From Lachnospiraceae bacterium (lineage in GTDB: Bacteria; Bacillota; Clostridia; Lachnospirales; Lachnospiraceae), in contig JAFSBX010000118.1 in the NCBI GenBank assembly GCA_017437065.1, forward strand, positions 1 to 49,818: a stretch of 49,818 nt of DNA. The letters are read 5' to 3'. Positions 31,600 to 49,613 of the stretch are shown here, piece by piece. A program made the translations under genes and the position numbers. Position 1 is the first letter of the stretch, and every line of letters begins with the position of its first letter. The notes below the pieces were generated by a model. It was not told where the DNA came from. It saw nothing but the letters and a program-made list of their open reading frames with translations, and did not search any database.

Positions 31600-31628
31600 T
31601 TGTAAATCATAAATTCCTGTGTTATTAT
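31600..31628 (+). promoter_or_regulatory. Candidate promoter of the rtcB-prfH leader
   Basis: TTGTAA (31600-31605), 17-base spacer, TATTAT (31623-31628). TGTAAAT (31601-31607) and ATTTACA (31627-31633) form an inverted repeat around the promoter, a possible operator. Confidence 0.65.
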
Positions 31629-31676
31629 TTACACGTTAACAATAAAGAAGAGCGATTAGTGAAAGGAGGACTTGCC

Positions 31677-31757
31677 ATGCAGAAGAATATAAATAATCAA
31701 AACAGAATAAAGAAACTGACAATCAAGGGTACGGAAGTCCTTTCATATTACAGATAG
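31677..31757 (+). CDS. 26-residue leader peptide of rtcB-prfH
   Basis: ATG 31677 has a strong site (AAAGGAGG, 31661-31669 region). The peptide (MQKNINNQNRIKKLTIKGTE...) ends in SYYR at TAG 31755-31757. It is basic, with no family match. It is followed by a stem (ATAAGAATA / TATTGTTAT, one mismatch) and a terminator 80 bases on. Position, strong site and terminator suggest a regulatory leader ORF rather than a functional protein, in the layout of leader-peptide attenuators of ribosome-protection genes such as tet(M). Confidence 0.7.
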   Translation: MQKNINNQNRIKKLTIKGTEVLSYYR

Positions 31758-31835
31758 ATTTGTTTTTATTTATGTGGCAGCAAGCTATAAGAATATTTTC
31801 TATTGTTATGAAGCTGTATAGAGAGGATTTGTAAA

Positions 31836-31858
31836 CTGCACCTTTGGGTGCTTTTTTT
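31836..31858 (+). terminator. Attenuator-type terminator before rtcB
   Basis: GCACC (31838-31842), TTTG loop, GGTGC (31847-31851), then TTTTTTT (31852-31858). It lies between the leader ORF and rtcB with no promoter seen after it, so rtcB expression must read through. Confidence 0.78.
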
Positions 31859-31886
31859 GTACCTAATTTTAGGGAGACAAAACAAT

Positions 31887-32996
31887 ATGAAAATAGTAAA
31901 AGGTATGTATACCGAAGCAAAAATATTTACAGATGATGTAGAGACTTATACGGAAGCACAGGTGAAAATGATATGTGATAATGAGGTTGCAGATGGAAGT
32001 ATTATCTGCATGATGCCGGATATCCATCCCGGCAAAATTGCCCCAATCGGGCTTTCCATGACAGTAACAGATAAGGTGATTCCACAGCTTTTGGGAGTGG
32101 ATATAGGATGTGGAATGACTTGTGTAAAATTGAATAAGAATAATGCGGAGTTTCAAAAGTTAGATAGAATTATCCGGGAAAATGTGCCATCAGGTTTTGT
32201 TATACGGAAAGAACCTCACCATATGGCAGAAGAATTTTCCTATGAGGGGCTTCATTGCGTTAGACATATCAACAAAAATAAGGCAGAAAGAAGTCTTGGA
32301 ACACTTGGAGGAGGTAATCACTTCATAGAGCTTGACAAGGGAACTGATGGCTGTATGTATCTTGTGGTACATACAGGAAGCAGACATTTGGGAGAGGAAG
32401 TGGCAGAATACTACACGAAGCTGGCAAGCAGTTGTCTGAAAGAGCAGGGGAAAGAAATTCCCTATTACATGAGTTATCTGGAAGGAGACAATAAAGAGGC
32501 ATATATGGAAGATGTGCAGATAATTCAGCATTATGCCGAGTGGAACAGACAGATTATTGTCAGGGAAATATTAAAAGGGATGAAGTGGAAAGCGGTGGAG
32601 CAGTTTTCGGTGGCACATAACTATCTGGATGCTTCGGGAATACTTCGTAAAGGCTCTATTTCTGCCCAAAATGGAGAAAAGGTAATCATTCCTGCGAATA
32701 TGAAAGAAGGGATTATATTGGGAATTGGAAAAGGCAATGCAGAATGGAATTATTCAGCACCACACGGCTCAGGAAGGAGACTGAAACGCGAGGACGTGAA
32801 GAATCAGTATACGGTATCGGAGTTTAAAAAAGAAATGAAAGGCATTTACAGCAGCTGCGTGGGAGCAGAAACGTTGGATGAGGCTCCTTTTGCCTATCGT
32901 TCCATAACAGAGATTGTAGAACAGATTAGTGATACTGTTGAGATAACGGAAATATTGAAGCCTGTCTATAATTTCAAGGCAGGAAGCAAAAAGTAG
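31887..32996 (+). CDS. rtcB: RtcB-family RNA ligase, release-factor-H-coupled type
   Basis: 369 residues, shorter than the ~480 of stand-alone RtcB and typical of the PrfH-coupled branch (RtcB2). It ligates 2',3'-cyclic phosphate or 3'-phosphate RNA ends to 5'-OH ends with GTP and Mn. Metal and guanylate sites are in MMPDIHPGK, GVDIGCGMTCVK, GTLGGGNHFIEL, HTGSRHLGEE, VAHNYL and HGSGRRLKRED. AGGGAG precedes ATG 31887. prfH follows 12 bases later. Confidence 0.95.
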   Translation: MKIVKGMYTEAKIFTDDVETYTEAQVKMICDNEVADGSIICMMPDIHPGKIAPIGLSMTVTDKVIPQLLGVDIGCGMTCVKLNKNNAEFQKLDRIIRENVPSGFVIRKEPHHMAEEFSYEGLHCVRHINKNKAERSLGTLGGGNHFIELDKGTDGCMYLVVHTGSRHLGEEVAEYYTKLASSCLKEQGKEIPYYMSYLEGDNKEAYMEDVQIIQHYAEWNRQIIVREILKGMKWKAVEQFSVAHNYLDASGILRKGSISAQNGEKVIIPANMKEGIILGIGKGNAEWNYSAPHGSGRRLKREDVKNQYTVSEFKKEMKGIYSSCVGAETLDEAPFAYRSITEIVEQISDTVEITEILKPVYNFKAGSKK

Positions 32997-33008
32997 GGGT
33001 GGTGTCTT

Positions 33009-33620
33009 ATGATAATTCAAATTAGTGCAGGACAGGGACCATCCGAATGTCAGCTGGCAGTTGCGAAACTGTTTGAGACTCTAAAAAAGGAGTATGGAGA
33101 GCTGGAAATATTATCAGAAACAAAAGGTTATGAAAAGGGCTGTTTTGACTCCATACGCTTTCGAACGGAGCATGATTTAAGCAGTCTTGAGGGAACGGTA
33201 TTATGGATTTGCAGGAGTCCGTTTCGAAAGAATCACAAAAGAAAGAACTGGTATGTTGATGTGAGCATTATTCCGGAGCTGACTGAGATTGCGGCAGATA
33301 AAGAATACCGTATAGAAAAGTTCCACTGTGGGGGAAAAGGTGGTCAGAATGTAAACAAGGTAGAAACCGGAGTTCGAATTGTACATATCCCCACTGGGCT
33401 TGTAGCACAGTCTACCGAGGAACGGAGCCAGTTTCAAAATAAGCAGAGGGCTATGGAGAAGCTGCAGAAAAAACTTGCCGGATTGCAACAGGAGCAGAAG
33501 GAGAAACAGGTCAATGCTGCATGGAGGGAGCATAATCGTATTGTCAGGGGAAATCCAGTACGTATTTATGAGGGGGAGAAGTTTATTCTAAATAAGTCAA
33601 AGACGAAGAATGATGATTAA
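33009..33620 (+). CDS. prfH: Peptide chain release factor H
   Basis: 203 residues with the GGQ peptidyl-hydrolysis loop in GGKGGQNVNKVETGVRI and no codon-recognition domain. PrfH releases peptides from ribosomes with a cleaved decoding centre; RtcB2 then repairs the 16S rRNA. Both genes being adjacent here matches that established pair. Site GGGGTGGTG before ATG 33009. Confidence 0.95.
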   Translation: MIIQISAGQGPSECQLAVAKLFETLKKEYGELEILSETKGYEKGCFDSIRFRTEHDLSSLEGTVLWICRSPFRKNHKRKNWYVDVSIIPELTEIAADKEYRIEKFHCGGKGGQNVNKVETGVRIVHIPTGLVAQSTEERSQFQNKQRAMEKLQKKLAGLQQEQKEKQVNAAWREHNRIVRGNPVRIYEGEKFILNKSKTKNDD

Positions 33621-49513: not shown

Positions 49514-49557
49514 AAAAAAGCCGACAGTTTCTGCGCAGTTTTCGCAGAAGCCATCAG
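49514..49557 (-). terminator. Expression-platform terminator overlapping the fluoride aptamer
   Basis: On the minus strand GCTGATGGCTTCTGCG pairs with CGCAGAAACTGTCGGC (two mismatches, two G-T pairs) and is followed by TTTTTT (49519-49514). The left arm is the 3' half of the aptamer, so ligand binding would block the terminator and switch the gene on. Confidence 0.85.
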
Positions 49558-49607
49558 CATAATTGCGGTTTAGGGATTATTACCCAAGGGAGTGCCTCAT
49601 TCCCAAT
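49543..49607 (-). promoter_or_regulatory. Fluoride (crcB-type) riboswitch aptamer
   Basis: Reading the minus strand: GGGAATGAGGCACTCCC closes P1-like pairing; an insert with GGG-TAATAA-CCC follows; then AAACCGCAATTATGCTGATG and GCTTCTGCG. This matches the fluoride aptamer order (GGcgAUGaGGcc.GCC, AAACcGC, GCuGAUGgCuuCU), including the GAGGC/GCTTC pseudoknot halves. A SigA promoter starts just upstream and the overlapping terminator gives an ON switch. Family known to control fluoride transporters and some Na+/H+ antiporters. Confidence 0.87.
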
Positions 49608-49613
49608 GTTGAT

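Follow-up and report, generated by a model that had tools for sequence, protein, structure and literature searches.

A candidate leader-ORF transcription attenuator ahead of rtcB-prfH operons and of MoxR-DUF2201 genes in Lachnospiraceae

In the window, which is the whole stretch of 49,818 nucleotides of Lachnospiraceae DNA that was analysed, two genes on the + strand are preceded by a short open reading frame and an intrinsic terminator. The first gene, rtcB (31887..32996, +), encodes a 369-aa protein of the RNA ligase RtcB family (PF01139, E 4.6e-57), and the second, prfH (33009..33620, +), encodes a peptide chain release factor H of 203 aa that scored 193 bits with TIGR03072, above the cut-off of 166.65. 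The closest PrfH relatives in named records were mostly from Lachnospiraceae, and PrfH was detected at E <=1e-44 in 8 of 341 genomes of the class, including that of the window. The products of rtcB-prfH probably rescue and mend damaged ribosomes. A comparable pair of RtcB and PrfH genes, RtcB2-PrfH of E. coli ATCC25922, protects from colicin E3 according to the available part of PMC9223846. The preliminary description had spoken of RtcB2 in this context; the window's ligase does belong to the RtcB family, but it fell under the TIGR03073 (release_rtcB) cut-off (121.8 versus 271.8 bits), and it shared about 25-32% identity with the RtcB found at most prfH loci beyond the window's clade.

A promoter-like sequence, TTGTAA-17-TATTAT with TG ahead of the second hexamer, is located at 31600..31628 (+). 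The match is weak alone, with 13 sites found compared to 10.6 expected. Among 42 related loci, 38 had a best site of the form TTGNNN-17-TGNTANNNT that ended 41-67 nt before the leader ATG, and the mean promoter-site score in the 42 loci was 11.67, compared to 9.67 after shuffling. Between 31629 and the rtcB start no promoter-like site was listed on the + strand, in agreement with the earlier statement that rtcB-prfH has no second promoter.

Four pairing segments could be placed downstream of the promoter. Segment 1 (31660..31676, +) comprises the Shine-Dalgarno sequence AAAGGAGG (31662-31669) and its spacer (TGAAAGGAGGACTTGCC) and has segment 2 as its partner. The leader ORF (31677..31757, +) has 26 codons (MQKNINNQNRIKKLTIKGTEVLSYYR); across the leader set the ORF length was 14-42 codons, and exactly 26 in 41 of 75 leaders. 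Segment 2 (31723..31745, +) consists of the leader codons TCAAGGGTACGGAAGTCCTTTCA, of which the 3' part pairs with segment 1 and 31723-31744 pairs with segment 3. Segment 3 (31821..31847, +), made up of GAGAGGATTT and the terminator 5' arm with its loop, is predicted to pair either with segment 2, giving an antiterminator, or with segment 4, giving the intrinsic terminator (31838..31858, +), which reads GCACC-TTTG-GGTGC at 31838-31851 and is followed by seven T at 31852-31858. The sequence therefore holds a short ORF, led by a ribosome-binding site, between a promoter and a terminator, and an intrinsic terminator before the first structural gene, as is expected of an attenuator. The intervening stem that had been described earlier was recovered in the predicted fold (31777..31817, +), but this stretch is variable in length among leaders and is missing from the short ones. 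The region 31720-31862 folded better than expected (z -3.51, with 0 of 200 shuffles equally good), and the fold of the whole 256-nt leader was unexceptional (z -0.82, 39 of 200 shuffles as good). A further hairpin may form past the terminator (31847..31863, +) by pairing of GGTGC with GTACC beyond the T run; it was paired in 98.5% of cells in 39 leaders, with no excess over shuffles. No Rfam family was detected at the leader at gathering score in the window and 12 leader-bearing loci, and the five weak matches were all far under their gathering scores.

Contigs were scanned with PrfH and 80 of 89 loci were kept, of which 53 had an RtcB N terminus that could be placed and an RtcB at least 50% identical to that of the window. 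A leader of the same type was found before rtcB-prfH in 48 of these 53 loci. The operon is also present in a cultured Lachnospiraceae commensal, Eisenbergiella tayi (L040). The five exceptions were L073, L075 and L089, which had no leader, L085, which had the ORF without a terminator, and L069, whose contig starts 114 nt upstream and in which the terminator is present. L052 and L057 are two operons on one contig, and L055, one of the 48, is apparently the locus of genome G001 and was used once, meaning that the two scans share at least one locus. Among 397 whole genomes of the family, the RtcB subtype of the window occurred 41 times in 40 genomes (E <=1e-70), and in the flanks available 16 of the 17 prfH-bearing operons carried the leader, G011 being the one without it. 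Homologous prfH operons that lack the ORF and terminator, which the preliminary description had named as evidence against its proposal, were thus in the minority in both sets. In the same 397 genomes the leader was also present in 1 of 4 rtcB operons that contain MoxR and no prfH, and in 7 of 20 rtcB operons with neither prfH nor MoxR; none was seen in the other 13, and some contigs end early. In the divergent set, an arrangement was called a leader by eye when a Shine-Dalgarno-led ORF stood ahead of a terminator, and it was tested by pairing afterwards; the T run was absent in L177 and weak in L184, L188 and L191.

In a midpoint-rooted RtcB tree of 49 rows, all 30 leader-bearing rows were in the main clade of 41 rows, a second clade of eight rows had no leader (0/8), and the minimum number of changes over the tree was nine. 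By this distribution the leader looks old within this RtcB clade. A Shine-Dalgarno-based search, a method unsuited to Bacteroidota, gave no leader of the window's type (type A) before rtcB in the 24 loci L087-L110, among which L089 belongs to the window's clade, L106 has a misplaced start and L087 has an ORF of a second type (type B).

Within the window's clade (clade A, 39 leaders), the terminator was paired in 99.5% of cells and two of its pairs had changed on both sides, a number of covarying pairs that was reached in 3 of 500 shuffles. The antiterminator pairing AAAGGU x ACCUUU was present in 94.1% of cells of the same leaders, hardly varied, and was no worse in shuffles. For a comparison among divergent leaders, 75 leaders were reduced to 37 that were at most about 72% alike, and to 36 after dropping L045, in which the ORF ends before segment 2. 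It was found that cognate segments paired better than permuted ones for all three helices, with mean duplex energies of -13.9 versus -10.6 for 1:2 (z -8.9), -21.8 versus -15.8 for 2:3 (z -10.0) and -11.9 versus -8.9 for 3:4 (z -8.6), and with 0 of 20,000 permutations as good in each case; the value for 3:4 is partly circular, because hairpins were chosen for stability, and the permutations take the leaders as independent, ignoring their relatedness. Six control segment pairs gave no signal (z -0.7 to +1.3, two of the pairs with 28 leaders). Weaker values were obtained for segment 2 with the stretch past the T run (z -3.4) and for the terminator 3' arm with the same stretch (z -3.0).

The signal for the antiterminator came from outside clade A, where the cognate pairing was better than the median partner in 23 of 23 leaders, compared to 5 of 13 inside the clade (z -1.7); for 1:2 the signal also held inside (z -4.4). 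Among the 37 leaders, 11 hairpins had been set by hand, and the windows for segments 2 and 3 overlapped in eight, all from clade A. With the 16 non-clade-A leaders whose hairpins were automatic, z was -5.3 for 1:2 and -7.2 for 2:3, and with the 29 leaders without overlapping windows it was -10.0 for 2:3. When the second segment was shuffled with its dinucleotides kept, at most 5 of 100 shuffles were as good in 29 of 36 leaders for 1:2 and in 25 of 36 for 2:3. Whole helices had been replaced in some leaders, for 1:2 with GGACAAUC/GAUUGUCC in L173, GGAAGAUC/GAUCUUCC in L177, GAUGAUUAC/GUAAUCAUC in L185 and GGGCAAUU/GAUUGCCC in L186, and for 2:3 with AGAGGU/ACCUCU in L141 in place of AAAGGU/ACCUUU. 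The comparison supports the predicted exclusive helices 1:2, 2:3 and 3:4, and across the divergent leaders the putative exclusive antiterminator is one that uses leader codons. That an ordinary terminator of an upstream gene merely stands beside a chance ORF is hardly credible: short ORFs and terminator-like sites are common, but their recurrence in relatives and the covariation contradict this explanation. The promoter, Shine-Dalgarno sequence, 26-codon ORF and terminator of the preliminary description are real features on this evidence, being present in the window, recurring in tens of relatives and forming helices that covary.

We consider 31600-31863 to be, with a probability of roughly 0.75, a four-segment ribosome-mediated transcription attenuator, in which an early stall would favour the antiterminator and turn on rtcB-prfH. 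The sigma-A-type promoter would produce leader RNA constantly. Normally translating ribosomes would either reach segment 2, the leader codons around K/R-G-x-x-x-L, or leave, and the 2:3 helix would be blocked or replaced by 1:2; with 2:3 absent the terminator would form and rtcB-prfH would stay off. A ribosome that has initiated and is stuck with its P site at about codons 1-5 would cover segment 1 and leave segment 2 free, by which 2:3 could form, the terminator would fail, and the enzymes for rescue (PrfH) and ligation (RtcB) would be made. Ribosomes whose decoding centre has been cut or poisoned could still attach to the strong Shine-Dalgarno sequence yet fail to accept the next tRNA, and the known role of the enzymes suggests damage to the decoding centre as the natural signal, general stalling being the other possible trigger.

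We modelled this by equilibrium folding of 35 leaders, a set that excludes L045 and L177 and becomes smaller at late codons. The ribosome was represented as a mask on the RNA, each transcript was cut off within the terminator loop, and the pairing of the terminator 5' arm with the ORF was taken as the antiterminator probability. By ribosome position, the mean probability was 0.63 (codon 1), 0.60 (codon 3), 0.54 (codon 5), 0.13 (codon 13) and 0.01-0.04 (codons 15-21); at codon 25 it was 0.34, the antiterminator forming again in 14 of 33 leaders. Since the antiterminator is likeliest with ribosomes at codons 1-5 and nearly impossible at 15-21, early stalling should switch repair on; in this model it is likely that early stalling switches the operon on and likely that ribosomes on segment 2 hold it off. 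The predicted gain is modest, because the leaders in which the antiterminator exceeded 0.5 already numbered 21 of 35 without a ribosome, compared to 26 of 35 once codon 1 was occupied. When the whole hairpin was included the trend was the same and weaker, and occupation of codon 1 still left the terminator as the winner in 21 of 35 leaders.

The mean antiterminator probability without a ribosome was 0.49, so an off state without translation rests on folding order. This value and the 21 leaders above 0.5 speak for another reading, in which the antiterminator is the default fold, absent translation is the on signal and any ribosome traffic over segment 2 terminates transcription. We regard it as unlikely, as the strongly covarying 1:2 helix would then serve no purpose and the window leader reached only 0.17 without a ribosome. 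With a ribosome at codons 1-5 the window leader reached its maximum of 0.77. The attenuator responding to an early-stalled ribosome with an antiterminator and readthrough, as the preliminary description had proposed, is thus favoured by both the covarying segments and the masked-ribosome folding.

The leader peptide itself appeared to be under little constraint. In the 39 clade-A leaders pN/pS was 0.66 for codons 2-15 and 0.75 for codons 16-25, compared to 0.22 for rtcB (595 pairs), and synonymous change was lower in the leader than in rtcB (0.40 versus 0.67), which is expected of a constrained RNA. Many leaders contain, in one reading frame, a motif like K/R-G-x-x-x-L close to the C terminus, and the remainder of the peptide differs widely among divergent leaders; the peptide as such probably has no function. 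In the drug-inducible erm, cat and ABC-F leaders, ribosome stalling on a short ORF turns on a gene that protects or modifies the ribosome, and yxjB of B. subtilis is alike in this respect in the part of its description available. In contrast to all of these, the window leader has no strongly conserved peptide and its target genes encode an RNA ligase and a release factor. The recurrent motif could point to an arrest peptide of the erm or cat kind, by which a drug or metabolite is sensed and the stall is programmed by the peptide sequence; this appears quite improbable, as the motif stretch coincides with RNA segment 2, the peptide constraint is weak with the rest of the peptide divergent, and in the folding model segment 2 would be hidden beneath a ribosome halted on the motif, to the advantage of the terminator. 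As a class, arrest-peptide leaders (erm, cat) were rejected for want of a strongly conserved peptide in the 39 clade-A leaders (pN/pS 0.66-0.75).

The attenuators of the trp and ilv type have four segments, exclusive helices, a leader ORF and an intrinsic terminator, and all of these are shared by the window leader. It differs from them in having no regulatory codon run and in that segment 1 is the leader's own ribosome-binding site, and therefore it should respond to initiation or the earliest elongation steps and not to a single tRNA. Amino-acid attenuators (trp, his, ilv) were rejected as a class: in codons 2-15 of 75 leaders no residue occurred more than 3 times in a row, and runs of 3 were seen in four leaders, the residue varying among them. 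Relative to what base composition predicts, 37 leaders had in codons 2-12 more Asn (72 versus 50.9, z 3.2) and Gln (28 versus 11.7, z 4.8) and less Lys (38 versus 63.4, z -3.5), and single leaders were rich in one residue in codons 2-15, with 7 Asn in L184 and 7 Thr in L209. RtcB enzymes are able to mend tRNAs, and together with these biases this would fit a sensor whose early codons register damage to particular tRNAs, such as the cutting of Asn or Gln tRNAs by anticodon nucleases, in the manner of amino-acid attenuators. The shortness and inconsistency of the runs argue against such a sensor and an A-rich unpaired spacer may explain the codon bias, which makes the explanation a rather improbable one.

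A leader peptide of Pseudomonas aeruginosa, PA5471.1, for which the original paper is reportedly that of Morita in 2009, offers the closest precedent. In the available parts of PMC12057347 and PMC13041342 it is proposed to attenuate armZ (PA5471, RtcB-like)-PA5470 (PrfH), with complete translation leading to a 3:4 terminator and early interruption to readthrough. An amber codon at position 3 was reported to raise ArmZ, and codons 3 and 4 to matter in the response to Cca loss (both in the available text of PMC13041342), and a review states in the part available that the attenuation needs more work for confirmation (PMC12057347/PMC13041342). As far as these texts go, the two systems are alike in the proposed leader-peptide attenuation before an RtcB-like gene with adjacent prfH, and they differ in that PA5471.1 is from another phylum and its ArmZ doubles as MexZ anti-repressor; the likeness drawn here is one of description. 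In the window the RtcB is from a different subgroup, the helices 1:2 and 2:3 are backed by comparison of 36 leaders, and MoxR-DUF2201 operons are targets among its relatives. With this precedent the principle of a leader-controlled RtcB-like/PrfH pair is not new, and the earlier suggestion of an undescribed control system is weakened.

Among the literature searched, rtcB, leader peptide and attenuation were joined only in the MexXY review. The word "leader" does not occur in the main text of PMC9223846, nor "leader" or "attenuat" in the available text of PMC1586002 on the prfH operon, and the main text of PMC2965389 contains no rtcB, prfH, release factor, RNA ligase, ribosome rescue or Lachnospir. 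Where bacteria have RtcA as well as RtcB, a protein, RtcR, switches the operon, according to the available parts of PMC7790460 and PMC9650030. In titles and abstract openings, with subscription papers mostly outside their range, no report was found of such a leader in Clostridia or before MoxR-DUF2201. The clostridial RNA family and its MoxR-DUF2201 branch apparently are unreported, and by sequence comparison the family is well supported as a putative attenuator.

A leader model (R1), run on the 397 family genomes, gave matches in 88 genomes (E <=0.01), from which seven leaders were accepted (G000, the genome of the window, G001, G355, G117, G301, G156 and G397). Other matches that were inspected, a minority of the list, were rejected as apparent terminators or translation starts belonging to other genes. 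The model led to leaders before the gene of a MoxR-type ATPase (AAA_5) that is followed by a gene for a DUF2201 protein. This MoxR was present in 15 of the 397 genomes (E <=1e-60), and its operon was preceded by a leader in seven (G355, G064, G077, G156, G182, G301 and G117; that of G182 was left out of the pairing tests) and by none that could be seen in eight (G147, G184, G267, G143, G198, G219, G027 and G264). The gene order was MoxR-DUF2201-RtcB-PrfH in G077, MoxR-DUF2201-RtcB in G064 and RtcB-MoxR-DUF2201 in G184, G147 and G267. In G355 a 90-residue rtcB remnant precedes MoxR, and in G301 leaders were found at both the MoxR operon and the rtcB operon. PrfH above the family cut-off was detected in 0 of 19 genomes with MoxR or a leader-led lone rtcB. 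By operon content, the placement of the leader therefore indicates a switch that tracks the RtcB/MoxR-DUF2201/PrfH group and not prfH alone; the earlier framing around prfH operons holds for most prfH loci, but is too narrow for leaders before prfH-less rtcB and MoxR-DUF2201. The related switches suggest that the MoxR-DUF2201 pair is part of the same response as rtcB-prfH. In the literature searched no paper pairing DUF2201 with MoxR was found, and titles and abstract openings on DUF2201 alone gave no function. The leader may thus serve as a sequence tag that ties this unstudied module to the response.

How cells notice cut ribosomes is poorly understood, and a cis-acting switch by which the failing ribosome itself turns on its own repair would be simple and testable. 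In some gut bacteria a tiny decoy gene and an RNA switch stand before probable ribosome-repair genes, and the arrangement looks built for stalls at the start of the decoy. We tentatively put forward a wider reading, somewhat less probable than its negation, of the leader as a widespread RNA sensor of ribosome quality. With the leader's own ribosome-binding site as its segment 1, such a sensor would read ribosomes that have initiated yet stay stuck on the first codons, as is expected after damage to the decoding centre, and tell them apart from idle or healthy ones; it would have arisen or spread in several forms, and would mark MoxR-DUF2201 (ATPase/VWA-like) as a ribosome or RNA repair module. 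The forms considered were type A of the window, the very short leaders of other Clostridia with their one or two terminators, and PA5471.1 in Pseudomonas. Putative type B leaders, an ORF of 10-14 codons followed by one or two terminators, were found at L220, L221, L222 and L224, which have a distant RtcB, and at L087; at L219 the terminators were present and the upstream part was cut off. In two loci of another family, L225 and L226, the leader ORF was type A-like (MKLRRQDLTTAKTLINKGT...).

The leader type seen at rtcB-prfH, a Shine-Dalgarno sequence with a short ORF and an intrinsic terminator, was also common to operons that encode a MoxR-type ATPase and a DUF2201 protein (putative metallopeptidase/VWA-like) at loci L144, L141, L142, L143, L209, L212 and L216, and rtcB and prfH were sometimes part of these leader-bearing operons. 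Near the operon of L142 (genome and contig G301:C29) lies a gene of 1356 residues that we take to be Cas9-like, with neighbours presumably resembling Cas1 and Cas2. At another locus, L187 (G137:C15), the gap between rtcB and prfH holds a segment that matches the beginning of MoxR and, beside it, the last part of DUF2201; it appears to be what a deletion left behind. Contig CATKYJ010000017.1 carries two rtcB-prfH operons (L052 and L057), each with a separate leader.

In other families of Clostridia, where PrfH operons have a distant RtcB, leader ORFs of 10-14 codons with one or two terminators were identified at L220, L221, L222, L224 and L087 (and L219). The motif TAYGAGGTG was common to the ORFs of L221, L222 and L224, and CCGTCACCTGA to those of L220 and L221. 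These short leaders are possibly a second attenuator type.

Upstream of unrelated genes at L116, L118 and L123, a terminator is followed by GTRCC(C/T)ATTTTT and a Shine-Dalgarno sequence, which may represent a general element or further attenuators; the gene behind it at L118 presumably resembles the GTPase RsgA. Additionally, a fluoride riboswitch (RF01734, 41 bits) was detected on the minus strand of the window at 49538-49613.
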